Source: Bacteroidota bacterium
GTDB lineage: Bacteria > Bacteroidota > Ignavibacteria > UBA10030 > UBA8401
Direction of reading: 5' to 3'
Length of the DNA stretch: 49,310 bases
Assembly: GCA_013361065.1 (NCBI GenBank)
Contig: JABWAK010000007.1
Location: 1 to 49,310, forward strand
Under the pieces are notes generated by a model that saw only the letters and a program-made list of their open reading frames with translations, was not told the DNA's origin and did no database searches. Of the stretch, positions 15,317 through 40,210 are shown piece by piece. Numbering within the stretch: the stretch's first letter is position 1; every line of letters begins with the position of its first letter. Both the position numbers and the translations under genes were made by a program.

Positions 15317-15337
15317 TCTTTTAGATCGATGCTGTCG

Positions 15338-16272: not shown

Positions 16273-16714
16273 AAGCAATGAGCAATTGACAATTAACAAT
16301 TGACAATTGACAATCGACAATCAACAAATTCCAAAATGAGCACGTCGATGCGCAAGAGAATTATGAAAAACAATCCCGCAGATCTCGCAGATAGTCGCAG
16401 AAAGGAAAAGATAAGCAATTATCAAATTGCAAGATTACAAATTCCAAAAATGAGCAAGTCGATGCGCAAGAGATAATTAAAAACATTTCCCGCAGATGAA
16501 CGCAGAAAACGCAGAAGGAAAAAAAAGCAATTATCAAATTACAAGATTACAAATTCCAAAATAAGGACGTCGACGAGCAGGAGAGAATTAAAAAATCATC
16601 ACTCTATTACGATGAGTATTTTCTCTTTCACACTCTCAATCAGTAGTCTGTAGTCTGTAGTCTGTAGTCTGTCATCTGTTTTCTGTTATCTGAAATCTTT
16701 CATCTGAATACGTT
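16273..16714. repeat. Repeat-filled spacer (112-bp tandem units, ACAATTGAC runs, TAGTCTG run)
   Basis: This 442 bp holds no gene. From 16280 to 16325 there is a run of ACAATTGAC-like 10-mers. From about 16333 to 16600 there are two full and one partial copies of a roughly 112-bp unit: GTCGATGCGCAAGAGA, a CCCGCAGAT...CGCAGAAAGGAAA core, then CAATTATCAAATTGCAAG. From 16635 to 16705 lies a decamer run, TAGTCTGTAGTCTGTAGTCT and variants. All three families recur elsewhere in the window. Confidence 0.85.
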
Positions 16715-22418: not shown

Positions 22419-22946
22419 AAAAGTTAAAAGTCAAAAGTATAAAGCAATTATCAAGATTATCATAATTATCAAGATTGAAAGATGTGAAGTGAATAAAACG
22501 TTGAGTAGATGAGTAGTTGAGTAGATGAGTAGATGAGACACGGCGTGGAAAAGCAATTATCAAATTGCAAATAACAAATTCCAAACGCGCAAGTCGATGA
22601 GCGGGAGAAAAAGTAGAAAAGGATAACATGTATCAAAATACAGGGAAGTCGTTGAGTAGTTGAGAAACAGCGCGGGAAGAGAAAATGCCAAATTGCAAGT
22701 TCCAAACGCGCAGGTCGATGAGCGGGAGAAAACGCCAAGGAGCTCTCCCGCAGATTACGCAGAAAAGGAAATAAGAAGAGCGATCATCCAATGAGAAGAC
22801 CGCAAATTTCATAATGAGCATCCGCTTCAGTCCAATATCTATTATCTTTCAATCTGTAGTCTGTAGTATGTAATCTGTAATCTGACATCTGACATCTGAT
22901 AACTTCATTTCTTTTGGATATCCAAGTACCACACGGAAAGACGATC
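22419..22946. repeat. Repeat-filled spacer before thymidylate kinase
   Basis: 528 bp with no gene. In order: AAAAGTTAAAAGTC runs (22420-22440), ATTATCAAGATT units (22443-22480), GAGTAGATGAGTAGTTGAGTAG runs (22500-22560, again 22650-22675), CAATTATCAAATTGCAAA...GCGCAAGTCGATGAGCGGGAG units (22555-22620, 22680-22790) with CCCGCAGATTACGCAGAAAAGG, and a TAATCTGTAATCTGACATCTG decamer run (22850-22900). Confidence 0.85.
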
Positions 22947-24107: not shown

Positions 24108-24466
24108 GCACTTAAAAAAAACTAAAGGAATTGAATCATTGGATCAATGAATCATTGAATCAATACGCATGAAAAAATGCAACGAGTCCAGGAAGAGCTG
24201 CAAAAAGATTGATTCATCGGTTCATTGAGTCATTGAATCAATACACATGAAAAAATGCGACGGGTCCAGGAAGAGCTGCAAAGGGATTGATTCATCGGTT
24301 CACTGAATCAATACGCAAGAAGGCTGCAATGTGATTGATTCAACAAGCAAGAAGGACCAAAATAGGATTGATTCATCGGATCATTGAATCATTGAGTCAA
24401 TACGCAAGAAAGAACATGAGCGCAGGAAGCATGTGATGACTCTGCGCTTGCCTCAGATCTTCATTG
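24108..24466. repeat. Tandem ATTGATTCATCGGTTCATTG repeats
   Basis: This 359 bp has no gene. About five units start near 24130, 24208, 24286, 24333 and 24367. The first two are about 78 bp long and almost identical (GATTCATCGGTTCATTGAGT, then AATCAATACRCATGAAAAAA, TGCRACGRGTCCAGGAAGAG); later units are truncated. Each begins with an imperfect ATTGATTCATNG...CAATGAATCAAT dyad, the same family as the palindrome at 13080. Confidence 0.85.
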
Positions 24467-25825
24467 TTAGTTCTGGCCTGGTTTTTTGAGTCCGTATTTG
24501 GCGATCTTGTTATAGAGAGTGACCCGGTCGATGTCCAGGATCTCGGCGGCACGGGTGATGTTCCATTTGGCCGATTCGAGGATCGATTCCACGTGCATCT
24601 TCTCCATGGCGGCCAGTGTGTCATCCTTCGGCAGTTCCAGTTTCGTCACATTCTGGAACGGCAGGTCGGTGGCGCGGATGGCCGGCGGCTGGGAGAGGAC
24701 CATGGCCCGCTCGATGACATTCTCCAGTTCCCGGACGTTGCCGGGCCAGTCGTAGCGGACGAGCATGTCCATCGCATCGCCGGAGATCTCGGTGACGGGA
24801 CGGTTCATGATGACGGCATACTTCTTCACGAAGAACTGGGCGAGGAGCGGGATGTCCATCCGCCGTTCGCGCAGCGGCGGAATGAGAACGCTGAACACAT
24901 TCAGCCGGTAGTAGAGGTCCTCGCGGAACGCCCCTTCCTTGATGGCGGTCTCGAGATTCCGGTTGGTGGCGCAGATGATACGGAAATCGCTCGAGAGCTG
25001 CTCGTTCCCTCCCACACGGGTGAACTGCTTGGTCTCGATCACGCGCAGCAGTTCGATCTGCATCTTAGGACTGACCGTTCCGATCTCATCCAGGAAGATG
25101 GTCCCGCCGTCCGCCATCTCGAACTTCCCTTTCCGCCGGTACTGCGCGCCGGTGAAGGCGCCCCGCTCATGACCGAAGAGCTCACTTTCCAGTAGCGATT
25201 CGGCCACCGCACCGCAATTGACCGTAATGATGGGGAAATAGCGCCGTTCGCTGTTGGCATGAATGGTCCGGGCGATGAGTTCCTTCCCCGTTCCGCTCTC
25301 ACCGCGGATCATGACGGTGGTATCGGTCTTGGCCACGGTCAGGGAGAGGTCGATGACGCGCTTGATCTGCGGGCTCTCGCCAACGATCTCGTTCACGCCG
25401 GACATCTCGGTGATGTGCTCGCGGAGGATGGAGTTCTCGTCCTCCAGTTTCCGCTGCTGGATGGCATTGGAGACCAAGTGGGACAGATGGTCCGGATCGA
25501 TCGGCTTGGTGACGTAATCGAACGCACCGTCCTTGAGCGCCTGCACCGCGCTCTCCACGGAGGCAAAGGCGGTCGCCATGATCACCTGCGCATTCCGGTC
25601 TATCTCGCGAAGCCGCTTCAGCAGTTCCAGTCCGCTCATCCCGGGCATCTTGATGTCCAGGATGACCACATCCCACGGTCCCTTCTCCATCAGTTTCAGC
25701 GCCGCATTGGCATGTTCGGCGGCTTCCACGCGGAATCCGTCCTGCCGGAACCATTTGGTGAGCGATTCACGGACGATCGTTTCGTCGTCCACGATCAGGA
25801 TGCTGTTACGTTTCGTGTCGGGCAT
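24467..25825 (-). CDS. NtrC-family sigma-54-dependent response regulator
   Basis: A 452-residue activator. Receiver domain (1-120) with phosphoacceptor Asp57 in VVILDIKMPGMSG and conserved Lys in YVTKPID. AAA+ domain (about 145-385) with Walker A GESGTGKE (175-182), the sigma-54 contact loop GAFTGA (222-227) and Walker B TIFLDEIG. The C-terminal Fis-type helix-turn-helix reads NITRAAEILDIDRVTLYNKI. It needs sigma-54 polymerase and fits the sigma-54 site at 31.38 kb upstream of the quinone-linked operon. It is separated from its likely partner kinase by 318 bp of repeats. GAGG lies 5 nt before the ATG. Confidence 0.93.
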   Translation of the reverse strand: MPDTKRNSILIVDDETIVRESLTKWFRQDGFRVEAAEHANAALKLMEKGPWDVVILDIKMPGMSGLELLKRLREIDRNAQVIMATAFASVESAVQALKDGAFDYVTKPIDPDHLSHLVSNAIQQRKLEDENSILREHITEMSGVNEIVGESPQIKRVIDLSLTVAKTDTTVMIRGESGTGKELIARTIHANSERRYFPIITVNCGAVAESLLESELFGHERGAFTGAQYRRKGKFEMADGGTIFLDEIGTVSPKMQIELLRVIETKQFTRVGGNEQLSSDFRIICATNRNLETAIKEGAFREDLYYRLNVFSVLIPPLRERRMDIPLLAQFFVKKYAVIMNRPVTEISGDAMDMLVRYDWPGNVRELENVIERAMVLSQPPAIRATDLPFQNVTKLELPKDDTLAAMEKMHVESILESAKWNITRAAEILDIDRVTLYNKIAKYGLKKPGQN

Positions 25826-26143
25826 AAGAACCTCGGAGGAGCAAAGTCAAAAGTGAAAAAGCGGGATAGAAAGTCAAAAGTGAAAAGTTAAAAGAGAAAC
25901 TTGGAGATCATTATCAAGATTGAAAGATTGTCAAGATTGATGTAGTCGTGGAGTATTTGAGTAGTTGAGTAGTTGAGACACAGGGCAAGAAGAACAATTG
26001 TCAGATTGCATAATTGCAAGATTGCAAGATTACATGATTGAAAGAGTATTTGAGACACGGCGCTGGAAAAGCAATTATCAAATTACAAGTACCAAATTCC
26101 AAGCATGAAGTATTTACTGAGTGCTGATCGCTGAGAACTCAAT
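25826..26143. repeat. Repeat-filled spacer between kinase and regulator genes
   Basis: 318 bp without a gene: AAAGTCAAAAGTGAAAAGTT runs (25843-25895), ATTATCAAGATTGAAAGATTG (25910-25938), GTATTTGAGTAGTTGAGTAG runs (25950-25985 and 26043-26060), CAAGATTGCAAGATTACA units and CAATTATCAAATTACAAG. It interrupts what is probably one two-component operon. Confidence 0.8.
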
Positions 26144-27739
26144 TCATGTCCGGTCGATGGGAAGATGGATAGTGAACGTGGTCCCTTTGTTCGGTGCGGA
26201 GTCGACCGTGATGGTGCCGTGGTGGCGTTCCACGATACCATAGACGACCGCAAGGCCGAGACCGGTCCCCTTCCCTTCCTTCTTCGTCGTATAGAACGGC
26301 TCGAAGACATGCGGCAGGTCCTCGGGCCGGATACCGACGCCGGTGTCGCCGACCGTCAGCATGACCACTCCTTCGGAGATGCGCCGGAGGGTGATGGTGA
26401 GGGTCCCTTCGTTCTGCATCGCTTCCACCGCATTGATCTGCAATGCCAGCAGCATCTGCTGGATCTGTTCGCCGTCGCATTCCACTTCCGGCAGTCCGTC
26501 CGACAGTTCCATCTGCCGGGCGATATTGTGCATCTTCAGATGATGCTCCACCAGTTTCGCACTCTGTTCCACCAGTCCCCGCAGATCGTTGCGCTTGAAC
26601 TCCCCCACCTTCCGGCGGGAGAAGAGCAGCAGGTTCTTCACGATATTACCGCAGCGGGCGGTCTCATCGGCGATCATGGACAATTCCTCCACCACTTCCT
26701 TCCGCTGCTCATCGGAGAGCGTTCCGCCGGAGGCATTCAGACGTTTCCGGATGAGTTTGGCATAGGTAAGGATCCCTTCGAGCGGATTGTTCAGTTCGTG
26801 CGCCACGGTGGCAGCGAGGGTGCCGAGCGAGACCATCTTCTCCACCTGGATCAGGTTCTTCTGCGCCCGGCCCAGCTCCTCGGTCTTCTTCTGCACACGC
26901 TCCTCCAGCGTCTGATTGAGCAGCTGGAGTTCCTCCTGCGTCCGTTTCAACGTGACGGTCATGTGATTGAAGGACTTCGTCAGGAATCCGATCTCATCCT
27001 TCGTCTGCACATTGATGGAATGGTCCAGGTCTCCGTTCATCACCGCGATGGTCCCTTCGGTGAGACGCTGCACGGGGATGTTGACGGTCCGCCAGAGGAA
27101 CACGCCGCAGAACCCGGTCAGGAGGAGCAGGAGCGCCACACCGCCGGCGTATTGCGTCTTCCGGAGGTCCTCGATGTACCGTTCGGTCTCATCGAGCGTC
27201 AGCATCACATCCAGCACACCGAGGATGGTCTGCTCGGGCGGATGGACGTGACAATCCGCTTCGGAACAGCTCTTCTGATTCTTGATCGGTGTGATGACCC
27301 CGATGACGCTGTGACCGGCAGGATTGGTGTAGGTGCGGACAAGCTCCTCATTGGCGGGGGTGACGACGGAGCTCTGTCCGGAGAGATGGCAGCCGACGCA
27401 GGCTTCGGCATCCATATCCACCGTGGTGTTCACTTCCTTCTCGACGGTGGAGTACGACACCTCCCCCTTCTTGTTATAGATGCGGATGGCCTCGATGCCG
27501 GGCTCACTGCCGATGGTTTGGATGATGCGGTAGATATCCTCGCGGTGGTTCAGCAGCATACTGTGCTGCGTGGAGCGCTTGACGATATCGCTCAGGCGTT
27601 GAGCGGAGGCGGTAGAGAGGTTCGTGTACCGTTCGGTCTGGATGTCCACGATGAGGAAGGTCAGCAGACCGACCCCGACGACCGTTACGACGAAGATCCC
27701 TGCCAGCAGACGGTACACCAGGAGGCGTGTGTATTTCAT
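26144..27739 (-). CDS. Sensor histidine kinase with c-type-heme-like periplasmic domain
   Basis: A 531-residue membrane kinase. TM1 is at about 8-32 and TM2 at about 197-217. The periplasmic loop contains CVGCH (Cys114-His118), a canonical CxxCH heme motif, and CSEADCH (Cys158-His164), a CxxxxCH variant, so the sensor may bind one or two hemes. A HAMP domain (218-270), a coiled coil (270-300), the H-box VAHELNNPLEGIL with His314, and an ATPase domain with GDTGVGIRPED and GKGTGLGLAVVYGI follow. The sensor most likely reads redox state or a small ligand. A 22-bp perfect dyad sits 8 bp upstream of the start. Its partner is probably the NtrC-type regulator downstream. Confidence 0.9.
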   Translation of the reverse strand: MKYTRLLVYRLLAGIFVVTVVGVGLLTFLIVDIQTERYTNLSTASAQRLSDIVKRSTQHSMLLNHREDIYRIIQTIGSEPGIEAIRIYNKKGEVSYSTVEKEVNTTVDMDAEACVGCHLSGQSSVVTPANEELVRTYTNPAGHSVIGVITPIKNQKSCSEADCHVHPPEQTILGVLDVMLTLDETERYIEDLRKTQYAGGVALLLLLTGFCGVFLWRTVNIPVQRLTEGTIAVMNGDLDHSINVQTKDEIGFLTKSFNHMTVTLKRTQEELQLLNQTLEERVQKKTEELGRAQKNLIQVEKMVSLGTLAATVAHELNNPLEGILTYAKLIRKRLNASGGTLSDEQRKEVVEELSMIADETARCGNIVKNLLLFSRRKVGEFKRNDLRGLVEQSAKLVEHHLKMHNIARQMELSDGLPEVECDGEQIQQMLLALQINAVEAMQNEGTLTITLRRISEGVVMLTVGDTGVGIRPEDLPHVFEPFYTTKKEGKGTGLGLAVVYGIVERHHGTITVDSAPNKGTTFTIHLPIDRT

Positions 27740-27746
27740 ACGAGTG

Positions 27747-27768
27747 TTGAAAGTGTCAACACTTTCAA
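27747..27768 (-). promoter_or_regulatory. 22-bp perfect dyad at the kinase translation start
   Basis: TTGAAAGTGT-CA-ACACTTTCAA, 10-bp arms with a 2-bp spacer, ends 7 bp before the histidine kinase ATG at 27739. It could be an operator for a dimeric regulator or an RNA hairpin covering the ribosome site; no separate Shine-Dalgarno sequence is visible. Confidence 0.6.
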
Positions 27769-27788
27769 TGGCTGTGGGAGAGGAACCG

Positions 27789-27826
27789 AAAAAAGGTACC
27801 GTGATATTGCGAGAACAGCAATATCA
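27789..27826 (-). terminator. Intrinsic terminator-like hairpin between GcvH-like gene and kinase
   Basis: On the minus strand TGATATTGC and GCAATATCA form a 9-bp stem with a 7-nt loop, followed 7 nt later by TTTTTT. It begins 8 bp after the stop of the upstream gene and separates the quinone-linked genes from the kinase-regulator pair. Confidence 0.6.
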
Positions 27827-27834
27827 AAATAGGG

Positions 27835-28641
27835 TCAATGCGGACGAAGGAGTCTGGAAACGAACCTTGTATAGCGCTTCTCACCGATGAATTTTTCAAT
27901 GTTGTCGATGCGTACACCGCCGTCGTACATCGTGGTGCCGACGGAGCGTTTGTTCCTTCGGAGTTCAGATTCCAGTTCACCGGTCTCGCGGAGGATGAAC
28001 GGAGCGAACTCGCCGGCGGTGCATCCATCCGCATTGTCCGCTGAGCCGGACGCACCGGAGATGGTGATGAGCCACCCTTCGCCGTACGGATCGGCGGTGA
28101 GCAGGGACGGATGGTCGGTGAGCCGTGCATTGACCCGCACGGCGGAGCCTTGCTGATTGCAGCGGACGGCGAAGGTGCCGGAATCCCGGAGGAGCCAGGC
28201 GAACGGTTCACCGCGGCCGATGTGTGCGGGAGGATGGATGGTCGCGATACCGGCGACCGGATAGATGAGCTGTGCCAGGAAGGCGTCCACTCCCACGGTG
28301 ACGGTGCCGTCGGGGAGTGAACGCATCCAGGTATGGTCGGTGTAGTAGCTCCGGTCCGCCGGGAACGACAGCGTGCGGAACGGCGCGAGGAGACGGCTGA
28401 CGGCATCCTCTGCCTCCGGAGGAGCGGCGGCTGCAGTGTGCTGCACTTCCGGGAGGTAGGCGCCGGACTGCTGCGCCGCGCGCGCTGCGAAGGTCTGATG
28501 CTGCTCGCGCATCACACTGTCGAACGGACATGTCTCGCACTCATAGCGGCAGGTGCAGAGCTTGTAGTTCACCAGTCCTGCATCCATCCACACGCAGTGG
28601 CTCTCATTGTCCGGAATTATCGTATGTGCATTGGCGGTCAT
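27835..28641 (-). CDS. GcvH-like domain protein with N-terminal Cys cluster, no lipoyl lysine
   Basis: A 268-residue soluble protein. The N-terminus holds five cysteines, Cys16, 29, 31, 35 and 38 (YKLCTCRYECETCPFD), likely a metal or Fe-S site. Residues 100-195 resemble glycine cleavage H protein: HTWMRSLPDGTVTVGVDAFL, GRGEPFAW, VRVNARL, and DPYGEGWLITI. Where H protein has the lipoylated Lys, this one has Ser-Gly (LRDSGTFAVRC), so it should not carry lipoate. The C-terminal part has REQ/EFAPFILRETGELESE. No gcvT or gcvP is nearby, so a role in glycine cleavage is unlikely. It is the fourth gene behind the sigma-54 promoter, 31 bp after the NrfD-like gene. Confidence 0.82.
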   Translation of the reverse strand: MTANAHTIIPDNESHCVWMDAGLVNYKLCTCRYECETCPFDSVMREQHQTFAARAAQQSGAYLPEVQHTAAAAPPEAEDAVSRLLAPFRTLSFPADRSYYTDHTWMRSLPDGTVTVGVDAFLAQLIYPVAGIATIHPPAHIGRGEPFAWLLRDSGTFAVRCNQQGSAVRVNARLTDHPSLLTADPYGEGWLITISGASGSADNADGCTAGEFAPFILRETGELESELRRNKRSVGTTMYDGGVRIDNIEKFIGEKRYTRFVSRLLRPH

Positions 28642-28672
28642 ACATCACCCCGTTCGGGGGAGCTGTGGAACA

Positions 28673-29878
28673 TCAGTTGCGGATCTCGGCCATGCTGCGG
28701 GAGACCGATTCGATGTCGTGCTTCCATGCGGCGGCGGCATGCGCCGGGGCATGGTCCTCCTGGTGCTCCTCGTGCGTGAAGACCGGGAAGTACTTGGCGA
28801 TGTAATAGAAGGCGACGAACCCGATGGTCACGATCATCATGGTGATCATGAACTCCGTGACGGAAGGGATGTAGGTAGAACCGGACCACCCTTCCATGCC
28901 GGTGATGGCGATGTTCATGCGGTTCATCACGAAGCCGACAACGACGAGCGATGCACCGATGAAGAGTCCGTTGGGGCTCTGCCGCACCTTCTTCTGTGAG
29001 AAGAGCAGGAACGGCACGAACACGCCGACGATCACCTCCGCCCAGTACATGTAGGTCTCGAACCGCGGAACGAGCAGCAGGGAGAACATATGACGGTCGT
29101 TCAGGTCGACCACCTTCATAACGGTGTAGACGCCGAGCATCACCACGCAGACGCGGGAGATCTCGGTGAGCAGATTCAGTTCCAGACCCCGTTTGAACGC
29201 GCGGCTGCTGATGAACGATTCGAAGATGATCATGGCGCAGCCGGCGGCGATGGCGGAAGCATAGAAGAAGACCGGCATATACGCCGAGTACCACAGCGGA
29301 TACATCTTGTCCGGCACGATCAGATAGAGCGAACCGAGCGAGGACTGATGCAGTGTGGAAAGGAGCACACCGAGGATGATGAGGGGGATGCTGATCCGCT
29401 TCACCATCTTGATGGTCTTCGTCATATGGAACTTCTCCAGGATGACCGGGGAGAACTCCAGGGCGAGCACGGTGGTGTAGAGCATGACGCACCAGGCGAC
29501 CTCGAACATGACGGAACGGGGGTTCCACATGATGATGGCGTGCCAGATCTGGAGCGGGCGGCCGAGGTCGAACATGAGACCGACGATGACGAGCAGATAG
29601 CCGAGGAACGCCGTCAGGATGGTGGGCCGGATGATCGGTTCGAACCGCTTGATATTGAAGATATAGACGATAGCGGCCAGGGTGAAGCCACCCGCAGCGA
29701 GCCCGACGCCGCAGAGGACGTCGAACCCGATCCAGATGCCCCACGGGAACTGGTCGGTCAGATTGGTGGACGCGCCGAGCCCATGAAAGAAGCGGATGTA
29801 CGTCGAATAGAGCCCGGCGGTGATGATGGCCACCGCGGTGACCTTCCAGAATGTGAATGTTGTGAGGAACCGTTTCAT
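28673..29878 (-). CDS. NrfD/HybB-type quinone-interacting membrane subunit
   Basis: A 401-residue integral membrane protein of the NrfD/PsrC/HybB family with about ten helices. Typical features are GLGASTNLTDQFPWGIWIGF near the N-terminus, SLGSLYLIVPDKMYPLWYSA in the middle (a PsrC/HybB-like quinol-site loop), and FVMNRMNIAITGMEGWSGSTYIP near the end. Members move electrons, sometimes protons, between the quinone pool and a ferredoxin-type subunit. The start overlaps the Fe-S gene stop (ATGA at 29875-29878), so the two are made together. No catalytic subunit is encoded nearby. Confidence 0.92.
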   Translation of the reverse strand: MKRFLTTFTFWKVTAVAIITAGLYSTYIRFFHGLGASTNLTDQFPWGIWIGFDVLCGVGLAAGGFTLAAIVYIFNIKRFEPIIRPTILTAFLGYLLVIVGLMFDLGRPLQIWHAIIMWNPRSVMFEVAWCVMLYTTVLALEFSPVILEKFHMTKTIKMVKRISIPLIILGVLLSTLHQSSLGSLYLIVPDKMYPLWYSAYMPVFFYASAIAAGCAMIIFESFISSRAFKRGLELNLLTEISRVCVVMLGVYTVMKVVDLNDRHMFSLLLVPRFETYMYWAEVIVGVFVPFLLFSQKKVRQSPNGLFIGASLVVVGFVMNRMNIAITGMEGWSGSTYIPSVTEFMITMMIVTIGFVAFYYIAKYFPVFTHEEHQEDHAPAHAAAAWKHDIESVSRSMAEIRN

Positions 29879-30669
29879 GACTTCACCTCATTGTTCTTTC
29901 CATTGTTCGATTGTGCCTGCTGCCGCATGGCGCGTTCCACTTCGCGGACCTCTTCGCGGCGGTTGGTGATCCACCAGATACCGAAGAGCATCGCGCCGCC
30001 GACGGAGACGACCCCGGGGATCTTGGAGAGGGCGTTCCAGGTGAGCTGCGGCAGCGGAGTGTTCTGCAGCGTGGTCTTGAATCCGAGCTGTTCGAACGGT
30101 ACGGAGGAGATGTAGAAGACGGAGGTCCCTCCCACTTCCTTCTGGCCGTAGATCCGCTGGATGTACTTCTCCGGTTCGGCCGCCAGACGGTCCGCAGCCT
30201 CCTTCAGCAGCTCCTCGCGGTCGCCGAACTTGGTGGCGCCGGTGGGGCATGCTTCGGAGCAGGCGGTGGGAAGCCCCTGTGCGACGCGTTCGTGGCACAT
30301 GACGCATTTCTGCACGCGCGGATAGGTGCTGGACCATTCGTAGCGCGGCACCTGGAACGGACATGCCTGCATGCAATACCGGCAGCCGATGCATTTCTCC
30401 ACGTCGTAGACGACGGGACCTTCGGCCATCTTGGTGAATGCGCCGACGGGGCAGACGGAAGCGCACGTGGGATCCTCGCAGTGCTGGCACATGCGGCGGA
30501 CGAAGACACCGTCATATTCTTCGAGTGCGGTGTAGGCGGTGGCGGAGAGGGATTTCTCCTCCTTCTCCGGGTCCTGCATGCGGTTCGCTTCTTTGCATGC
30601 CAATTGGCAGGCGTTGCATCCCACGCAGAGGGTCAGATCGATCAGGAGCGCTTTTTTGCTGGTAGACAT
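29875..30669 (-). CDS. Four-cluster ferredoxin-type subunit with C-terminal membrane anchor (HybA/NrfC-like)
   Basis: A 264-residue electron-transfer protein. Sixteen cysteines lie in four groups: CVGCNACQLAC (15-25), CQHCEDPTCASVC (61-73), CIGCRYCMQAC (93-103) and CVMC...CSEAC (122-141), the pattern for four [4Fe-4S] clusters. Unlike HybA there is no Tat signal; the first cluster starts at residue 15, so the clusters probably face the cytoplasm. A single transmembrane helix near the C-terminus (VVSVGGAMLFGIWWI) anchors it. The ATG at 30669 has GGAGG 5 nt upstream. It partners the NrfD-like subunit encoded next. Confidence 0.92.
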   Translation of the reverse strand: MSTSKKALLIDLTLCVGCNACQLACKEANRMQDPEKEEKSLSATAYTALEEYDGVFVRRMCQHCEDPTCASVCPVGAFTKMAEGPVVYDVEKCIGCRYCMQACPFQVPRYEWSSTYPRVQKCVMCHERVAQGLPTACSEACPTGATKFGDREELLKEAADRLAAEPEKYIQRIYGQKEVGGTSVFYISSVPFEQLGFKTTLQNTPLPQLTWNALSKIPGVVSVGGAMLFGIWWITNRREEVREVERAMRQQAQSNNGKNNEVKS

Positions 30670-30683
30670 GGTATCCTCCGAGG

Positions 30684-31331
30684 TCAGGCAATGGTCAGGA
30701 ATTCGTTCTCGAACTTCCTGCACTGTTCAGGGTTCAGGGTATCCATGATGCCGTTGGCCGGAAGGCCGCCGTCCTGCATGTAGGCAAGCGCGGGCGAGGT
30801 CACATGGGAGAAGAAATCACGCAGGCGTCCCATCTCATCGCGCAGCCACACCCGGGTGTCCTCACCGAGGTAGAAGGCGCGCAGGTCGCTGACGCGGGCC
30901 GGCGTGATGGTATAGGCCCATCCTTCGCTGAAGAGCGCATCGCTCAGCAGGGACGGGGTGCTGACGAGCGAGGTGTTGGCATGTTCCACCACACCGTCGA
31001 TCGGGGAACGGACGATCACCTCATTCTTCCCTTCGCTCACGCGGAGGATCGGTTCACCTTTGGCAACACGGTCCGAATTGTTCTTGAGCAGCGTGATCTG
31101 CGGCGCGGAGAACATGCGGGCGAGGAAATCATCGATGCCGAGCTGCACCTTCCCGGACGGGAAGAGACTGAGCCAGGTATGCGACTTGGTGAAGAAGATC
31201 CCGGCGGGTGTGCGCATCGGAATGGTCTTGCGGAGGATCGGCTGGACGGCCGGAACCGCCTTGTTGCGGCGGACGAAATAATCGATGGTCAGGAAGGCCA
31301 CGATGGTCGAAATGAACAATAAGACTGTCAT
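30684..31331 (-). CDS. Membrane-anchored GcvH-like protein with candidate lipoyl lysine
   Basis: A 215-residue protein with one N-terminal transmembrane helix (residues 3-20, VLLFISTIVAFLTIDYFV) and a GcvH-like domain (about 46-142): HTWLSLFPSGKVQLGIDDFL, AKGEPILRVSEGKNEVIVRS, PIDGVVEHANTSL, FSEGWAYTITP. Lys102 in SEGKNEV lines up with the lipoylated Lys of H protein (ES.KA, eight residues before the conserved Pro). The C-terminal 65 residues (DTRVWLRDEMGRLRDFF, AYMQDGGLPANGIMD) are unfamiliar. It is the first gene behind the sigma-54 site. AAAGGAG 8 nt before the ATG at 31331 sets the start; 17 upstream codons are not used. Confidence 0.82.
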   Translation of the reverse strand: MTVLLFISTIVAFLTIDYFVRRNKAVPAVQPILRKTIPMRTPAGIFFTKSHTWLSLFPSGKVQLGIDDFLARMFSAPQITLLKNNSDRVAKGEPILRVSEGKNEVIVRSPIDGVVEHANTSLVSTPSLLSDALFSEGWAYTITPARVSDLRAFYLGEDTRVWLRDEMGRLRDFFSHVTSPALAYMQDGGLPANGIMDTLNPEQCRKFENEFLTIA

Positions 31332-31377
31332 TGTATTAGCTCCTTTCATTGCTGGGTTATTCGACACCAATACTAAT

Positions 31378-31393
31378 GACAATCACCGTGCCA
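31378..31393 (-). promoter_or_regulatory. Sigma-54 (-24/-12) promoter of the quinone-linked operon
   Basis: Minus strand TGGCACG-GTGA-TTGTC: the -24 box is a perfect TGGCACG, and the -12 box differs from TTGCA by the C of the GC pair. Spacing is right. It lies 47 bp before the ATG, and a sigma-54 activator is encoded 6 kb downstream. Confidence 0.7.
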
Positions 31394-31434: not shown

Positions 31435-32420
31435 TGATTCCATTGTGGTTGCGACTGACGCGTTCCGCCATCCGAGCGATGAAAAAGTGAACGGTACTGT
31501 AATGATGAATTCCTCTACACAGAGTGTACACTCCAGAATCGAAATTGGGGGAATTTCTCTACAACGGGGGATTTACGGAGTGTTGAATTGTACAACTGGG
31601 GGTGGGGAGAAATTCAACAGAGGAAAGAATCAATTATCAAATTACAAATCACAAATTCCAATAGCGCAAGTCGATGCGGATAAAAAGCATTCCCGCAGAT
31701 CGCGCAGAATAACGCAGAAAGGAAATAAGAAAAGCAATTTCCAAATCACAAATGACAAATTCCAAACGAGAGCATCGATGCGCAGGGAGAAAAACATTTC
31801 CCGCAGAAACCGCAGAATAACGCAGAAGTGAAAGGAGGAAAAACAATTGTCACAACACAAATTCCAATAGCGCAAGTCGATGCGGATAAAAAGCATTCCC
31901 GCTGAATACGCAGATGTACGCAGAAAGGAAAAAGAAGAGCAATTCTCAAACTACAAATCACAAATTCCATTAGCGCGAGTCGATGCGGATAAAAAGCAAT
32001 CCCGCAGATCGCGCAGAATAACGCAGAAAGGAAATAATAAGAGCAATTTCCAAATCACAAATGAGGGAATCAATGCGCAGGAAAAGCAATTATCAAACTG
32101 CAAGATTACAAGATTGCAAGAATGCGCATTAGTGCGAGTCGATGCGCGGAAGAGCAATGAACAATGGACAATAGACAATCTGATAGCTGAGGGCTGAAAG
32201 CTGAGAGCTCTCGCTGTACTGTAATAAGTAGTTGAGTCATGGAGTCGATGAGACTTGGAGAGGGCTATTGGCTATTGGCAATTGGCAATTAACAATGAAC
32301 AATTGACAATCAAAAATTCCACAAAATCGGCAGGCCGGTCTTTAGGACGGTAATCGTATGTCTGCAGTCTGAAGTCTGTAGTCTGTCATCTGCTGTCTAC
32401 AGTCTGAGGGCTGCCTTCTC
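31435..32420. repeat. Repeat-filled spacer, 1 kb
   Basis: After about 180 bp of unique promoter-proximal sequence, 31620-32155 carries four to five units of about 105-110 bp (GCGCAAGTCGATGCGGATAA, CCCGCAGATCGCGCAGAATA, CGCAGAAAGGAAATAAG, CAATTTCCAAATCACAAA). Then come a CTGATAGCTGAGGGCTGAAA block with a GGGCTATTGGCTATTGGC tail (32174-32312), a partial CGGTCTTTAGGACGG hairpin (32330-32350) and a GTCTGCAGTCTGAAGTCTGT run (32355-32410). The minus strand is open in several frames with the same peptide recurring, which is a repeat artefact. Confidence 0.85.
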
Positions 32421-34097
32421 TCACCTCAGATACATCATCTTCCGCGTCTGCGAGAAGGAGAGGGTGCGGAGGGTGTAGAGATAGACGCCGGTCGGGAGAT
32501 TCGAGGCGTTGAAGCGGACGGTATGGTCACCGGCAGGACGGGGACCGTTGACGAGCACGGCGACTTCCTTGCCGAGCATGTCGTACACCTTCAGCGAGAC
32601 GGTGCCGGCCCGGGGAAGTTGATACCGGATGCTGGATACTGGATTGAAAGGGTTAGGATAGTTCTGTCCCAGCGCGTAGGCGGTGATGGCAGGCTCCACG
32701 AACGCTTCCACGGAACCGGTGTATTCGAACTTCCCGTCACGGTCGATCTGCTTCAGACGGTACAGCACCCTCCCCTTCGCTGTTGCATCGGTGAAGGTAT
32801 AGGAGTGCGGGGCGTTCGTCGTACCGTGGCCTTCCACGAAACCGATGCGGCTCCATGTGCCGGACATCATCTTCTCCACTTCAAAACCAAGATTGTTCTG
32901 CTCTGTTGCCGTACTCCACACCAGCATCACTCCTTTACCGTTCACCATCGCAGTAAAGGAGGCGAACTCCACCGGCAAACCCTCTCCTTCATCGCCCGTA
33001 TCAACGGGATGCGGATCGTCCGGCAGCCGGTCATCCGTCAGGCGGTATTTCGGGTCGCCGATGACGACGTCCATCCACGACAGGAACGGTGAGGCGGATG
33101 CATACGATTCGGCTACCGTGTAGCCCTGGGTGTAGAGATCGAACAATATGGAGACATCGGCCATGGCGGAGGCATACGGTTCGTAGACATACCCTTTCGC
33201 GGCGGTCACCCCTTCCGCGATGATGTCGGCGATCAGCGACTGTCCGTACACCACCGGCTTGGTGAAGGTCCGCGCCGAGGTGGAGACATAGGTCTCTGCG
33301 ATCGCACCCGGATTCCAGGTAAAATTCAGCCGTCCATACTGCGATGTATGTTTATCATTACTTCCCCACCCTGCATAACCATTCACCTGCTGCTGACCGG
33401 TCAGATAAACATTGGTGGAATCCAGAAGACATGACAATCCGCGGCGGCGCATCGTGTCCGCCGCAACACTCATCCTGGTATTGAGATAGGGCGCTGCGGT
33501 ATTCCAGCCGGGGTCCATATCCAGGACAAATTTTCCACTGGTTGGGGGTCCGTTCGGGATCACCGCCGAGCGGTCGATGAGTCCCACCACATCGGCGACC
33601 GTATAGCCATCCAGCCGGGTAACGAGATAGATGCCGTATTGCATCCGTGTGAAATGGCCACGTTTGCCATAGTACGGCGAAGTGATCCTGCCATTCCCGC
33701 CGATGGAGCCGGCATACGGCCCGAGCAGCAGGGACAGTTCACTCTCCACGGAGGAGGAGTACCATCCATCCTGCCGCTTCACTTTGAGCGGTACCCCTTT
33801 GGTGGTGACGATATAATTGATACTGTCCTGGATACCATAGAGGGTCAGATGGTCCTCCACTCCCTTCCGGAGGAGGGCGAATTGGGGATCGGAGATCTCC
33901 TCCGTGAGAGGAAGAGCGAGCCGGATGATGTTCTCGGGATGGATGCAGCGCTGAGCGGCGAAGTAGGAACCGATGCTGTCCGATTGGGGACTGTTGCTGT
34001 TGATGATGACCACGACGTCATGGTACGTAGAGGTCTGCGCCGCAACGAATGCAGTGCATACCAGAAGCAACAATAGTGTTCCGATCCGTGGAAGCAT
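32421..34097 (-). CDS. TIGR03790-like secreted protein with T9SS sorting domain
   Basis: A 558-residue exported protein. Signal peptide MLPRIGTLLLLLVCTAFVAAQ, then the TIGR03790-type region: VVVIINSNSPQSDSIGSYFA, PENIIRLALPLTEEISD, INYIVTTKGVPLKV, and further blocks to about residue 365 (TAAKGYVYEPYASAMADVSI). A linker with EFASFTAMVNGKGVMLVWST leads into a conserved 160-residue tail. The last 80 residues are a T9SS type A sorting domain: GQNYPNPFNPVSSIRYQLP, VSLKVYDMLGKEVAVLVNG, GVYLYTLRT and a basic end. The product should cross the outer membrane and be attached at or released from the surface. The molecular function of TIGR03790 is not known. Confidence 0.85.
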   Translation of the reverse strand: MLPRIGTLLLLLVCTAFVAAQTSTYHDVVVIINSNSPQSDSIGSYFAAQRCIHPENIIRLALPLTEEISDPQFALLRKGVEDHLTLYGIQDSINYIVTTKGVPLKVKRQDGWYSSSVESELSLLLGPYAGSIGGNGRITSPYYGKRGHFTRMQYGIYLVTRLDGYTVADVVGLIDRSAVIPNGPPTSGKFVLDMDPGWNTAAPYLNTRMSVAADTMRRRGLSCLLDSTNVYLTGQQQVNGYAGWGSNDKHTSQYGRLNFTWNPGAIAETYVSTSARTFTKPVVYGQSLIADIIAEGVTAAKGYVYEPYASAMADVSILFDLYTQGYTVAESYASASPFLSWMDVVIGDPKYRLTDDRLPDDPHPVDTGDEGEGLPVEFASFTAMVNGKGVMLVWSTATEQNNLGFEVEKMMSGTWSRIGFVEGHGTTNAPHSYTFTDATAKGRVLYRLKQIDRDGKFEYTGSVEAFVEPAITAYALGQNYPNPFNPVSSIRYQLPRAGTVSLKVYDMLGKEVAVLVNGPRPAGDHTVRFNASNLPTGVYLYTLRTLSFSQTRKMMYLR

Positions 34098-35160
34098 AGT
34101 GTCCTGCCGAACATCCGTTTTCGGGTAGACGCATTAATGCATATGGCATGCCAATCAAGAATCGCTCTTTATACTGAATTCTAGGCAGATCGTTAGGAAT
34201 ACGGAGGCAACCCAAGGATACACAAGGACAACTGTCCGCCAGAGGACAGGGAAATGGGTTCCTCTCGTTCCGTGGAGGAAGAAAAATGGGGAGTAAAGAT
34301 TTTTGGCAATATCGGAGTGAAAGGGCGGATTATAGAAATACCAATGTCCAAATGACAAATTCCAAACGAGGTCATCGATGCGCGAGAGAAAACGCAAAAA
34401 CAGTCCCGCAGATCTCGCAGAATAACGCAGAAAGGAAATAAGAAGAGCAATTTCCAAATCACAAATGGCAAATTCCAAACAAGGGCATCGACGCGCGAGA
34501 GAAAACGCAAAAACAGTCCCTGCCGCCTGGCGGGGGTTACACGGCGGCATTCCACCCTGGATCATCCTGGAGGCGGAAGCAGATAACGCAGATGTACGCA
34601 GAATATCGCAGAGAGGAAATAAGAAGAGCAATTTCCAAATCACAAATGACAAATTACAAATGAGGGCTTCGATGCGCAGGAAAAGCAATTATCAAATTGC
34701 AAGATTACAAGATTGCGCATTTGCGCGAGTCGATGCGAGAAAGAGCAATGAACAATGGACAATTGACAATCTGATAGCTGAGGGCTGAAAGCTGAAAACT
34801 GTGAGCTCTCGCTGTACTGTAAAAAGTAGTTGAGTCGTGGAGTCGATGAGTCTTGGAAAGGGCTATTGGCTATTGGCAATTAACAATGAACAATTGACAA
34901 TGGACATTCAGGACGATCACGACTATGGTACGCCGGTCTTTAGGCCGGCGATCGTACATAAAAGAAAGGAATGGAGTCGCGGAAGAGAACAATTGACAAC
35001 GGACAATCTGATAGCTGAGGGCTGAAGGCTGAAAACTGAGAGCTATCATTGCACAGTAATAAGTAGTTGAGTCTTGGAGAGGGCTATTGGCAATGAACAA
35101 TCTGAAAGCTGATAGCTGAAGGCTGATAGCTATACTTGAGTTGTTGAGACACATCTCAAG
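34098..35160. repeat. Repeat-filled spacer, about 1.1 kb
   Basis: The first 100 bp before the TIGR03790-like gene are unique and must hold its promoter. From 34340 to 34735: ACAAATTCCAAACGAGGTCA / CCCGCAGATCTCGCAGAATA units. 34769-34905: CTGATAGCTGAGGGCTGAAA block with GGGCTATTGGCTATTGGC. 34909-34996: the 90-bp element with hairpin GCCGGTC-TTTA-GGCCGGC (34932-34949). 35005-35140: another CTGATAGCTGAGGGCTGAAG block. No gene seen. Confidence 0.85.
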
Positions 35161-35269: not shown

Positions 35270-38200
35270 TTATTTCATGAGGAGCATCTTGCGGGTCTGG
35301 GTGGAGGTGCCGGAGCGGAGGGTATAGAAATAGATGCCGCTCGGCAGCGCAGATGCGTTGAAGTCCACCGAATATTCACCGGCAGTGCGGTGTCCGTTCA
35401 CCAGCACGGCGACCTCCTTGCCGAGCATATCGTAGACCTTCAGGGTGGTGTTCCCTGCGGACACAAGCTGATACGTGATGCGGGTAGCAGGATTGAACGG
35501 ATTGGGGTAGTTCTGGTCCAGCGTGAACCGGACGGGAGCGGTGACAGAGACCTCCACCTCCTGCGAATACTCGAACTTCCCGTCCCGGTCGATCTGTTTC
35601 AAACGATACGCGTACCTTCCGGATGACAGCGAACGGTCGACATACCGATACTCGTGCGGGGTATTCGAAGTCCCGTTCCCTTCAATGAACGACAGTGCGC
35701 TCCATTGTTCCGCCGCACCGCTGTTCTGAGGGTCCAGCGCCCTCCGCTCCACCGCAAAACCATGGTTGTTCACTTCCGTTGCCGTGATCCACTGTAGTTC
35801 GACTCCGGCACCGCGCTGCATGGCGGTGAGCGAGGTGAGTTCTACGGGAAGTACTGCGTACGTTGTATTGATGAACACCGAAATATCATTCGAACCATAA
35901 TTCGCTGTTAAGAGATCCATGTCACCGTCATTATCAAGATCCGCAGACTGGATCGAGTATGGATATTGCCCGGTAGAATAATCCCTCCTTTCGCCGAACG
36001 TTCCGCTGCTATTATTCTTCAACATTGAAATACTGCTTGATAACAGGTTCGTCACAACGATATCACGATCACCATCACCATCACCATCGACCAATTGTAT
36101 GGAGGATGGATTCGCACCGACCTCATAGAACACTCCGGCAGCAAATGTTCCATTACCATTGTTCTTTAATACCGTGACCGTTCTATTCTCTGAGGGATTG
36201 TAATCACCGAAATTTGCTGCAACAATATCGATGTCGCCGTCATTATCGATATCTCCTGCATCGACCCATCGGGTCTTCGTCGTATAGTCCCCAAAATAGA
36301 TATAATTTACCGAGGTGAAGACACCGCTGCCGTTATTCGCTGCGACATTCACTCCAAATCCGCTGGCAGGAAGAATCGCATCCAGATCGAGATCCCCGTC
36401 GACATCGGCCAATACCATGTTCTCCGAAGGACCGAAGGCATATTCTGTTTTTGCAGCGAATGTACCGTTGCCGTTGTTCTTCAGAACTGAAAACCCGCTT
36501 CCGTTATTGTTCGAGACAACAAGATCGTCATCGCCGTCATTGTCGAGATCCCCGGCAGTAACATTCCGCGGTGATGTGCCTGTTGAATATTCCGTCTTTG
36601 GTGCAAATGTTCCATCGCCGGAATTCATCATGACAGCCACCACGTTCCCTGATGAACGTGTGAACAGCATATCTTTGTCTCCATCCCCATCCACATCCGC
36701 CAGCGCCACCGAAATAGTATTCGTTCCGGCTGCATAACTGACCTTCGCAGCGAATGTTCCATTGCCGTTATTCTTGATGATGGAAAGCGTATTATCATCC
36801 GTGGAAAGAAGCGCAATATCGATATCGCCGTCGCCGTCCAGATCCGCCGTCTGAAGCGCATATGCTCCAGGCGCTGTGGCTCCCACCGATACTGCAGGAT
36901 AGAACGTATCTGCCGCTGCCGGACGGACGATAAAGCTCCAATATTTCTTGGCTCCAAGCGGGATATTATCTGTGCTTTTAATCCCCGTGGTAAGCAGAAC
37001 ATCGACTTTCTCTCCTGCAGAAAAATCTGTCGCCGGATCAAATGTCATCGTCATCCCGCCATTGGAAAGCGTCACCGTGCCGTTGTGGACGCCGGACTGG
37101 GACCCTGTCGCCTTCACCGTCGAACCGGAAATGAACGATGCCGCATCCATGGCAATGCTGAAGGTTGCCGTGATATTCCCTGACCGTGTAAGTGCGCTGG
37201 AATTGGCTGCCGGCGAGACCGACACAATGGAGGGTTCTGAGGGGAAGCCGGTCCCATTCCAACTGTAGCCGCTTCCCTTCAAATTGAGCGTACTGTTATT
37301 GCCGGAGGAATCATACGCGACCGCTGCGGTCGGTTCCGAACAGCGGTAATTCACCAGGAGACCCGACTGTGCACCGGAGATCTCCGTGAACATGGCACCG
37401 CTGAGCTGGGATGCGGAGCGGGCATAATTCCAGATCCGGATATTGTCCATCGATCCGGTGTACGCCGAACCCTGGGGGCTTGACATGCCGAAGAAGTACG
37501 TGTTGACACTGTTGAACATCGTACCGATGGTGACGGCGGTCCCCTCCTCCACACCATTGACGAAGAGACGCATCTGTCCGTTATTGGTCGCGGTGATCGC
37601 CACATGGTACCATTGTCCGGCCACGACCGTCGTGGTTCCGGTGATGAACCGTAATTGTCCGTCGAACAGATAATGCTGGAACTTATGGTCGCTGGTGATG
37701 CCGATCTGATGCGTATTGTATGAGGTCGCCGGGCCGGTACCGTCCGAGATGGAGCCGATGATCCTGGAGGTGACATCCGCCGGCTTCACCCATAGCTCGA
37801 TGGTGTAGGCGGTCGGGGTCGGAATGGCCACTTTCCCGTACCCGTCCGTACCGTTGAAACTCAGCGCTTTCCCGGCAGGTGCGCCCGCGAACAGCACTTT
37901 CACAAGATTTTCCGTGTGACTCGAAAGCACGAGATCTGTCTTCCCGTCACCGTCCATATCGGCAGCAGCAACACCCGCCACGGTGAAGCCCAACGGATAC
38001 GGCACGACCGAGAACACGCCCGAACCGTTGTTGCGGAGAACATTCAGCGCCGAACCATTGACGCACGTAACGGCAATATCGATATCCCCGTCCCCGTCCA
38101 CATCCGCCGGGACGGCCATATACGGCAACAACCCGACGGCATAGTCGGTCTTCGCCGCAAAGGTCCCGTTACCATTGTTCATGATCACCGAGACGGAATT

Positions 38201-40210
38201 CGCCCCGGCATTCGGAGTGATCATATCCTCATCCCCGTCGCCGTCCAGGTCCGCCGTACGCGCCAGCATCGGATTCGCACCGGTGGAATAGGTGGTGATG
38301 CTGCCGAACGTACCGCTGCCGTTATTCAGATACACGCCCATTGTACTGGAGTAATATCCGGCTCCGATGAGATCCATGTCCTTGTCGCCGTCCACATCCG
38401 AGAATTGGACACCGTGAGTACCGGAAAGACCGGTATAATTCGTGCTGGCGCTGAATACACCGGAACCATTATTGGTGATCACTGATATGTTGTTGGCATC
38501 AAAATTGCCCGAAGCAAGATCAAGGTCGCCGTCACCGTCGATATCCGCAGCGTCAATGAACGTCGGTGTTTGACCCACCGTGTAGCTCACTGCGGCGGCG
38601 AAGGTTCCATTCCCGTTGTTCTTCAGGATAGCAAGCGTTGCATTATTCACCGCCGCGATCAGGTCCATATCCCCGTCGTTGTCCACGTCCGCAGACGAAA
38701 TGGAACGAATGCTGGCAGCCAGCGAATAATTGGTCGGTGAACCGAAGGTCCGGCTGCCGGTGTTCAGTATGACCGAGACGGTATTGGCGGTATAATTGCC
38801 GGTCGCGATATCGACATCCCCGTCATTGTCCAGGTCCGCTGTGACCGGAACGATGGCCCCGGAGACAGTCGCCGCATTCACCAGCGTACCGAGGGTGTCG
38901 GAAGAGGTCGTCTGGACGGTGAACCGCCACATGACCGGAGAACCAAGGGGGTAATTGACGGCATTCACTGCCGACGTGGTCACGATGACCGTGACATATT
39001 CTCCCGGCAGAAAGTTCGTTGTCGGATCAACGGTGGCTGTGTAGGTCCCGGAGTTATACGAAACGGAACCGGCGTGCCTCCCCGACAGCGAACCGATAAG
39101 CATGATCGATGTCCCGACCGCGAGCGATGAGGCGTTCATCGGTTCATTGAATACGACAACGATGTTCGCGGAGGCGCTGACATTCGAGGCATGCATCAAC
39201 GGCGTATGTGAACTCACGCTCGGTGTCGACATCAACGAGCGCAGATACGGATAACCATTGTTCACCGCACTGTTCATTCCCCACGGCGCTGTGAGGTTCC
39301 ATCCGGCCCCCGTGAATGTGCTGCTGGTCTTCATTTCAGCGGTGGTCTTGCCGGTGCCACCGCCGGTGCTGACGGCCTGGCCGGTGGTCTGGGTATCCCA
39401 GAAGGAGGAGGAAAAGTCCACAGCGGATCCATCGGTGTATCCCACCAGACCGCCCACACTGACGGAACCTGTGACGGCTCCTGTTGCATAACAATTGATG
39501 AGTTTGTTACCGGACTCTACTGAGCCAACAAGTCCTCCAACCCTTGACGTACCGCTCACGGACCCTGCGGCAAAACTATTGGCAATGCGATAGATGGAAT
39601 TGACGGAATACCCCGCCAATCCTCCGACCCATGAGGCGCCGCTCACCGACGCAAGGGAAAAGCATGAATCGATGTTCTGATAATTCGCTCCGACAAGACC
39701 TCCCACCATCCAACGATTGCTTCCGGAAGTGGTCACCGATCCCGTCACGAGACAACCGGTGATGTTCCCGTCATTCAATCCAACAAGCCCCCCGACATAC
39801 CGGTCTCCGGTGATCGAAACATTGAACAACCGAATATTCTTCAGCGTACCCCAACTTCTCCCGAAAAAACCGGTATAGTCCGAACTCTTGTTGACCCTCA
39901 ACCCTTCGATGCGATATCCCTGACCGTCATACGAACCGCCGAAGGGAGATGCTCCCGTTCCGATCGACGGCATCCCTGCACCTCCGCTCCAGCTGCTGGT
40001 GGCGGACGCATCGATGTTCGCCGTCTGGATGAAATACGAGTTCCACGTGCTGCTGTTCTGCGTGATCCAGTACAGATTCTCGAGCGTGGCGATCTGGTAC
40101 GGGCTCCCGACCGTGCCGTTGCCGGCGGCGGGGGCCGTGGCGGTCTGGGCCGCGAGCGGGACGCTGACCATGAGCCAGAGGAAGCAGAGTGTTGTCGCAA
40201 TGGATTTCAC
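35270..40210 (-). CDS. Giant multidomain surface protein (GLUG, Ig-like, FG-GAP/VCBS, LamG) with T9SS sorting domain
   Basis: A 1646-residue exported protein. Signal peptide to about residue 21; five GLUG-type repeats (about 80-300, each with VGGLVG and NCYATG-like segments); a Big_5-like domain (about 335-440, VVVFNEPMNASSLAVG); about seven FG-GAP/VCBS repeats (D-D/N-GDxD and NNGNGTF units, 445-790); a LamG-like domain (about 800-990, ALSFNGTDGYGKVAIP, TIELWVKP); a second Big_5-like domain; a second block of about seven VCBS repeats (1115-1460); and the T9SS tail (NYPNPFNPATRITYQL, KVYDMLGKEVAVLVNG). It probably acts as an adhesin or binds polymers; DxDxDG loops imply calcium. GTG start with AAGGAG 10 nt upstream, 41 bp behind the receiver gene. 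Confidence 0.88.
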   Translation of the reverse strand: MKSIATTLCFLWLMVSVPLAAQTATAPAAGNGTVGSPYQIATLENLYWITQNSSTWNSYFIQTANIDASATSSWSGGAGMPSIGTGASPFGGSYDGQGYRIEGLRVNKSSDYTGFFGRSWGTLKNIRLFNVSITGDRYVGGLVGLNDGNITGCLVTGSVTTSGSNRWMVGGLVGANYQNIDSCFSLASVSGASWVGGLAGYSVNSIYRIANSFAAGSVSGTSRVGGLVGSVESGNKLINCYATGAVTGSVSVGGLVGYTDGSAVDFSSSFWDTQTTGQAVSTGGGTGKTTAEMKTSSTFTGAGWNLTAPWGMNSAVNNGYPYLRSLMSTPSVSSHTPLMHASNVSASANIVVVFNEPMNASSLAVGTSIMLIGSLSGRHAGSVSYNSGTYTATVDPTTNFLPGEYVTVIVTTSAVNAVNYPLGSPVMWRFTVQTTSSDTLGTLVNAATVSGAIVPVTADLDNDGDVDIATGNYTANTVSVILNTGSRTFGSPTNYSLAASIRSISSADVDNDGDMDLIAAVNNATLAILKNNGNGTFAAAVSYTVGQTPTFIDAADIDGDGDLDLASGNFDANNISVITNNGSGVFSASTNYTGLSGTHGVQFSDVDGDKDMDLIGAGYYSSTMGVYLNNGSGTFGSITTYSTGANPMLARTADLDGDGDEDMITPNAGANSVSVIMNNGNGTFAAKTDYAVGLLPYMAVPADVDGDGDIDIAVTCVNGSALNVLRNNGSGVFSVVPYPLGFTVAGVAAADMDGDGKTDLVLSSHTENLVKVLFAGAPAGKALSFNGTDGYGKVAIPTPTAYTIELWVKPADVTSRIIGSISDGTGPATSYNTHQIGITSDHKFQHYLFDGQLRFITGTTTVVAGQWYHVAITATNNGQMRLFVNGVEEGTAVTIGTMFNSVNTYFFGMSSPQGSAYTGSMDNIRIWNYARSASQLSGAMFTEISGAQSGLLVNYRCSEPTAAVAYDSSGNNSTLNLKGSGYSWNGTGFPSEPSIVSVSPAANSSALTRSGNITATFSIAMDAASFISGSTVKATGSQSGVHNGTVTLSNGGMTMTFDPATDFSAGEKVDVLLTTGIKSTDNIPLGAKKYWSFIVRPAAADTFYPAVSVGATAPGAYALQTADLDGDGDIDIALLSTDDNTLSIIKNNGNGTFAAKVSYAAGTNTISVALADVDGDGDKDMLFTRSSGNVVAVMMNSGDGTFAPKTEYSTGTSPRNVTAGDLDNDGDDDLVVSNNNGSGFSVLKNNGNGTFAAKTEYAFGPSENMVLADVDGDLDLDAILPASGFGVNVAANNGSGVFTSVNYIYFGDYTTKTRWVDAGDIDNDGDIDIVAANFGDYNPSENRTVTVLKNNGNGTFAAGVFYEVGANPSSIQLVDGDGDGDRDIVVTNLLSSSISMLKNNSSGTFGERRDYSTGQYPYSIQSADLDNDGDMDLLTANYGSNDISVFINTTYAVLPVELTSLTAMQRGAGVELQWITATEVNNHGFAVERRALDPQNSGAAEQWSALSFIEGNGTSNTPHEYRYVDRSLSSGRYAYRLKQIDRDGKFEYSQEVEVSVTAPVRFTLDQNYPNPFNPATRITYQLVSAGNTTLKVYDMLGKEVAVLVNGHRTAGEYSVDFNASALPSGIYFYTLRSGTSTQTRKMLLMK

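Follow-up and report, generated by a model that had tools for sequence, protein, structure and literature searches.

A conserved gene set combining a probable heme-sensing two-component system, a ferredoxin–NrfD module and H-protein-fold proteins without a conserved lipoyl lysine in the class Ignavibacteria

The window analysed here, comprising the first 49,310 nucleotides (nt) of contig JABWAK010000007.1 (assembly GCA_013361065.1) from a Bacteroidota genome of 3.8 Mb, carries a group of seven genes encoding a ferredoxin–NrfD membrane module, two proteins with the fold of the glycine cleavage H-protein (GcvH), a sensor kinase, an NtrC-type activator and an archaemetzincin. Comparison with related genomes indicates that these genes form one conserved and regulated system, as the original prediction for this locus had proposed, and that the lysine on which its lipoyl mechanism depended is not conserved in the GcvH-like proteins, referred to below as GcvH_TM and GcvH_Cys. 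The genes and features, from the putative promoter downstream, are as follows.

31378..31393, minus strand: sigma-54-type -24/-12 site TGGCACGGTGATTGTC, recognized by sequence and site score, 62 nt upstream of the first gene
30684..31331, minus strand: GcvH_TM, 215 amino acids (aa), with one N-terminal transmembrane (TM) helix, an H-protein fold and a C-terminal DGG segment (PF01597, E 8.6e-11)
31026..31028, minus strand: codon of Lys102 in GcvH_TM, which aligns with the lipoyl-lysine position of true H-proteins
29875..30669, minus strand: ferredoxin subunit, HmcB/HybA-like, with 16 Cys (four 4Fe-4S), a C-terminal TM helix and no Tat signal
28673..29878, minus strand: NrfD-type integral membrane quinone subunit, HmcC/HybB-like (PF03916, E 2.1e-26)
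27835..28641, minus strand: GcvH_Cys, with an N-terminal Cys4 module, an H-protein fold and a DGG segment (PF01597, E 5.9e-12)
28528..28596, minus strand: Cys4 module CVWMDAGLVNYKLCTCRYECETC of GcvH_Cys
27740..27834, minus strand: two strong hairpins (z -4.5) in the gap between the GcvH_Cys and kinase genes
26144..27739, minus strand: sensor histidine kinase with periplasmic CxxCH and CX4CH motifs, HAMP, HisKA and HATPase domains; a probable di-heme c sensor
24467..25825, minus strand: NtrC-type sigma-54 activator, with a receiver, an AAA+ domain with GAFTGA, and a Fis helix-turn-helix
23571..24107, minus strand: archaemetzincin (peptidase M54) with an intact HELGHTYGLVHC active site (NF033823, 152.3 bits)

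Gene calls and family profiles place every gene named in the original prediction on the minus strand and in the order given; what it overlooked is the seventh member, the archaemetzincin gene, which together with the activator gene falls outside the segment 26144-31393. The terminator that it located between the GcvH_Cys and kinase genes stands as the pair of hairpins, with no T-tract terminator called there.

The arrangement is widely conserved. With GcvH_TM as the query against 296 genomes of the phylum, and 40 neighbourhoods then read, the order GcvH_TM, ferredoxin, NrfD, GcvH_Cys, kinase, activator and archaemetzincin was found to be kept at genus, family, order and class level (approximately 20 genomes). 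The relatives include a congeneric locus on contig CAIOTF010000005.1 of Ignavibacteriae KTt_bin-1621 (L036/L096) and one in Bacteroidota GS21 (L122), whose GcvH_TM shares 93% identity with the window protein. Among 119 genomes of the class Ignavibacteria, GcvH_TM and the archaemetzincin occur jointly in 51, GcvH_TM alone in two and the archaemetzincin alone in three (Fisher ~2e-27, uncorrected for phylogeny), and 48 of 50 same-contig pairs lie 4.7-8.1 kb apart. A GcvH-like gene accompanies all 45 of the ferredoxin–NrfD pairs of the window's type (type A), a figure that is partly built in, since the loci were selected by GcvH or the Cys motif; we rely instead on an independent NrfD search, which returned 47 strong orthologues; in 43 cases a GcvH-like gene lies within 4 kb. 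Two GcvH-like proteins are encoded beside 42 of the 45 type-A pairs. In the window the gap between the archaemetzincin and activator genes (24130-24444) is filled by three imperfect 78-nt repeats; in most relatives these genes abut or nearly do so.

The sigma-54 site foreseen ahead of the first gene scores 13.9 of a possible 16.6, a value reached by 1% of shuffles, and most type-A operons have a similar site upstream: the congeneric locus has a near-perfect match (TGGCACGGTGATTGCC), and scores in related loci (22-23 loci) are mostly above those of shuffles. The strongest evidence for regulation comes from other phyla. The Desulfobacteria have a cassette of kinase, activator, archaemetzincin and one or two GcvH-like proteins with the Cys4 module, with no NrfD gene nearby; in 33 of 48 cases the archaemetzincin gene has a long GcvH-like gene no more than 3 kb away, and such a gene is present in 33 of the 38 archaemetzincin genomes. 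Sigma-54 sites scoring at least 14.5 precede 39 of 63 GcvH-like leader genes (62%) as compared with 3 of 178 other leaders (2%), and none of 71 archaemetzincin or 75 activator genes (Mann-Whitney 1e-22). This concentration of sites ahead of the GcvH-like genes marks them as the probable targets of the adjacent activator. Genes for HdrA, HdrB or MetF are found near several of these cassettes, as confirmed by family searches at L203:96-3991 and 11915-17268 and at L171:5528-7999, and as judged from sequence starts at L106, L133, L196 and L200.

The kinase that adjoins the activator has its two heme motifs at residues 114-118 (CVGCH) and 158-164 (CSEADCH), and both the CxxCH and the CX4CH motif are kept in 18 of 18 related kinases. 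It is thus a probable di-heme c-type sensor, with heme binding predicted from these motifs.

The H-protein is the textbook lipoyl carrier, and both GcvH-like proteins clearly share its fold, with profile matches to solved H-proteins at E values of 1e-28 and 7e-25. Their predicted models (mean pLDDT 86.6 and 83.6) match 1onl in Foldseek with TMt values of 0.87 (the top match for GcvH_TM) and 0.90, H-proteins ranging from 0.87 to 0.92. The original prediction had Lys102 carry a lipoyl swinging arm; among 39 GcvH_TM relatives, however, the corresponding residue is Lys in only four, with Asn in 11, Ser in six, Gly and Asp in five each and Glu in four, and the congeneric orthologue has Asn. At the same position GcvH_Cys has Ser in the window protein and Trp, Glu, Gly, Asp and others across the family (Lys in 6 of 64), and 77 long GcvH-like proteins from other loci have mostly Gly (Lys in 1 of 77). 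What is conserved in place of the lysine is HxW, GxDxF, GW and the C-terminal DGG segment. The NCBIfam GcvH models TIGR00527 and NF002270 score 43.2/29.5 and 51.0/38.7 bits, far under their cut-offs (117 and 115.85). A lipoyl swinging arm was rejected on these lysine columns, and on conservation the lipoyl mechanism is refuted, loss of Lys102 among homologues being an outcome that the original prediction had itself named as disproof; there remain two H-protein folds that are predicted to lack lipoate. That these are misannotated biotin carriers or the true H-protein was likewise rejected, since the genome encodes each of those separately (true GcvH, C226; BCCP, L005). The GcvH domain of GcvH_TM should be cytoplasmic, because a positive flank follows its N-terminal helix and because its receiver-bearing relatives must be cytoplasmic.

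The ferredoxin subunit (PF13247 and Fer4 domains) has HmcB as its best NCBIfam match (258 bits), followed by HybA, and the NrfD subunit has HmcC (332 bits), followed by HybB; the two belong to the HmcBC/HybAB clade, yet fall under the cut-off of each family, and the NrfD subunit has no solved structure by sequence. Two further expectations hold across the class. A Tat signal is absent from the ferredoxin of 20 of 20 orthologues and from all 45 type-A pairs, whereas the class also has Hmc-like paralogues, which carry Tat signals and are accompanied by a 13-heme partner. Likewise, no catalytic subunit is present: a Mo-type subunit adjoins none of the 45 type-A pairs, and a protein with at least three heme motifs (a cytochrome) lies near five of them, so that the four genes are not elsewhere regularly joined to a known catalytic subunit that happens to be missing here. 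Local gene loss was rejected as an explanation, since orthologous loci lack such a subunit too. According to Duarte et al. (PMC6303296), a dimeric ferredoxin–NrfD module can be joined by a catalytic subunit or by other subunits, or can operate by itself with soluble proteins. The module of the window may move electrons between menaquinone and a partner encoded elsewhere. The missing Tat signal argues for a cytoplasmic redox face, as originally suggested; the C-terminal helix of the ferredoxin, however, keeps the same positive tail as its Tat-exported, tail-anchored paralogues and homologues, which speaks against settling on that face, and a tail-anchored ferredoxin without a signal peptide, probably exported with its partner, has been reported (PMC10924467).

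GcvH-like proteins of this kind also occur in other settings. In a third type of locus the GcvH domain follows a receiver domain and is encoded beside HmcA/B/C-like genes and a heme-motif kinase gene; these receiver–GcvH fusions (L061:7801-9823, L053:15635-17656 and L056:15038-17048) are again without the lipoyl lysine, and one of them has the same N-terminal TM anchor as GcvH_TM. A fourth type, seen in the same and related genomes, is a QRC-like operon with two GcvH-like proteins of its own along with kinase, archaemetzincin and activator. Parts of such a second system are present in the genome of the window, at L073:7990-10935 (G000:C2) and on L062 (G000:C19), with their own GcvH-like and kinase/archaemetzincin/activator genes.

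The Cys4 module is found in GcvH_Cys and is absent from GcvH_TM. Its residues C16, W18, Y26, L28, C29, C35 and C38 are invariant in 64 sequences, although the search pattern itself had specified these positions, and it is probably a metal site or a redox switch. A motif scan of DNA found the module in, among the matches listed, Desulfobacterota, Gemmatimonadota, Planctomycetota, Acidobacteriota, Neomarinimicrobiota, Calditrichota and others. Response regulators with tandem Cys4 modules and no GcvH domain, for example in Dehalococcoidales, are encoded at L107:323-1387 (with TPR repeats), L169:139-957, L173 and L192, and at L180:2697-3989 a HoxU-like 2Fe-2S/4Fe-4S ferredoxin is fused to a GcvH domain. 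The receiver–TPR–Cys4 proteins (L107, L169) and the ferredoxin fusion place the two parts in signalling as well as redox settings.

The archaemetzincin passes its family cut-off (145 bits) and has the motif HExxHxxGxxHC..C.M..CxxC, with 16 residues instead of 17 in the last spacer. CarG of Myxococcus, in which the catalytic Glu has been lost, serves transcription (PMC3427221); here the active site is intact, unlike that of CarG, which makes proteolysis likely, and the enzyme probably processes or removes a protein of the regulon.

Taken together, these comparisons suggest that an electron-transfer module, on which lipoyl-less GcvH-like proteins dock or act as regulators, is under the control of a two-component system that responds to redox state, a reading to which, as a whole, we assign a probability of about 0.5. 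The periplasmic c-heme sensor kinase would phosphorylate the NtrC-type activator, which would then open a sigma-54 promoter driving both the quinone-linked ferredoxin–NrfD module of the HmcBC/HybAB type and the two H-protein-fold proteins. The latter, free of lipoate, could serve as protein–protein modules that bind the membrane module from the cytoplasmic side, either as its regulators or as its link to a partner; in the receiver-fused versions phosphorylation might control this step directly. Control of the genes is well supported by comparison, and the docking role is one that we infer. Several points weigh against the proposal. Phosphotransfer from kinase to activator is assumed from adjacency, the window site has T in place of C at the -12 GC, and the Fisher values ignore phylogeny. 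The partnership is moreover not obligatory: the GcvH-like proteins of Desulfobacteria have no NrfD nearby, and two ferredoxin–NrfD pairs, read from among the exceptions to the NrfD count, are without an adjacent GcvH gene, namely a second copy that adjoins an HdrA-like gene (L211, 5789-10637) and a pair that adjoins genes for a 13-heme cytochrome and for kinase, activator and archaemetzincin, with the GcvH pair on another contig (L212).

The same observations bear on other explanations. A lipoylated GcvH_TM, with Lys102 as the attachment site and dithiol electrons exchanged with the quinone pool, has in its favour the H-protein fold, the suitably placed lysine of the window protein, and the precedent of lipoylated GcvH-like proteins (LbpA) that serve sulfur oxidation; LbpA proteins, however, retain the lysine strictly (PMC6067878), and with its loss in most relatives, in the congener and in nearly all long GcvH-like proteins, and with the weak TIGR00527 and NF002270 scores, we give this reading next to no weight. 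A more serious but still doubtful proposal is that the Cys4 module holds iron or an Fe-S cluster and that GcvH_Cys is a small electron carrier between the ferredoxin subunit and soluble enzymes, for example of the Hdr type. The four invariant cysteines, the HoxU-like fusion and the HdrA, HdrB or MetF genes near Desulfobacteria cassettes, with HdrA also beside a GcvH-less pair, are consistent with this, whereas GcvH_TM has no such module, the receiver–TPR–Cys4 proteins suggest a signalling role, and the cysteine spacing, in a part of the model of moderate confidence, is equally compatible with zinc.

It is also conceivable, although unlikely, that the GcvH-like proteins work in assembly or quality control, that they hold the ferredoxin or NrfD during cofactor or membrane insertion, with the archaemetzincin clearing failures, and that they are not part of the finished complex. 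A ferredoxin with neither Tat signal nor catalytic partner could depend on a helper, the set comes with a protease gene, and two GcvH-like proteins per pair is the usual number; yet the GcvH-like proteins of Desulfobacteria occur without the complex, the receiver fusions point towards signalling, and ferredoxin–NrfD pairs without GcvH exist. The notion of the kinase, activator and archaemetzincin as a general stress regulon with interchangeable passengers accommodates a cassette that is found on its own in Desulfobacteria and next to a variety of redox genes in other groups, but is hard to reconcile with the tight co-occurrence and fixed order in Ignavibacteria or with sigma-54 sites placed precisely ahead of GcvH-like genes, and we regard it as very improbable. 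Returning to the two-component reading, its broadest form is tentative: the set may represent a widespread, multi-phylum redox-signalling family in which one cassette brings together a kinase of the heme or PAS type, an NtrC activator and an archaemetzincin with lipoyl-less Cys4 H-fold effectors. The effectors, some of them receiver-fused, would bind and gate type-A ferredoxin–NrfD, Hmc-like and Qrc-like complexes, so that quinone-linked electron flow would be controlled both by transcription and by direct contact.

We found no literature linking GcvH with NrfD, or an archaemetzincin with such a cassette, in a search outside which subscription papers lay, and the combination of archaemetzincin, lipoyl-less GcvH family and sigma-54 control appears to be undescribed in the literature searched, although its parts are individually known. 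A large family that keeps the H-protein fold without the cofactor site, and that travels with respiratory complexes and two-component systems, would represent a new use of the fold, and if receiver–GcvH fusions do gate NrfD complexes, phosphorylation would tune respiration directly. The gene set also gives the bacterial archaemetzincins, whose role is poorly known, a place in a defined regulatory system whose sigma-54 target can be put to the test, and so offers a clue to their function.

Members of an intergenic repeat family, approximately 11 in number and with a 65 nt core (GAAAAGCAATTATCAAATTGCAAATAACAAATTCCAAACGCGC...), border the operon and other genes; they include copies at 22548-22733, 26066-26130, 31625-31998, 34329-34687 and 44832-44896. 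At 35270-40210 lies the gene for a 1646-aa secreted repeat protein with internal DNA repeats of approximately 147 nt and a C-terminal sorting-type tail, and the tail region recurs at 32436-32735 and 45382-45681.

Each component can be compared with a known system. Like HmcBC/HybAB, the module of the window consists of a four-cluster ferredoxin subunit and a 10-TM NrfD protein of the HmcC/HybB clade; it differs in its sub-cut-off scores, in the ferredoxin without Tat signal, and in having two GcvH-fold proteins in place of the HmcA, hydrogenase or Mo-type partner, none of which is encoded beside it. It shares the NrfD superfamily with the QrcABCD menaquinone reductase, but is without the QrcA cytochrome and the QrcB subunit, both of which are present in the paralogous type of locus. 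The GcvH-like proteins have the fold of the glycine cleavage H-protein and LbpA, and depart from them in the unconserved lysine, the added TM helix or Cys4 module, the DGG segment and the receiver fusions. The archaemetzincin has the HExxHxxGxxHC motif of the M54 peptidases, and differs from CarG in its intact Glu and in the linkage of its gene to a two-component system. Finally, the activator has the receiver, AAA+ and Fis domains of NtrC/ZraSR-type two-component systems, from which this system is set apart by the periplasmic CxxCH and CX4CH motifs of its kinase and by its likely targets, the GcvH-like genes.

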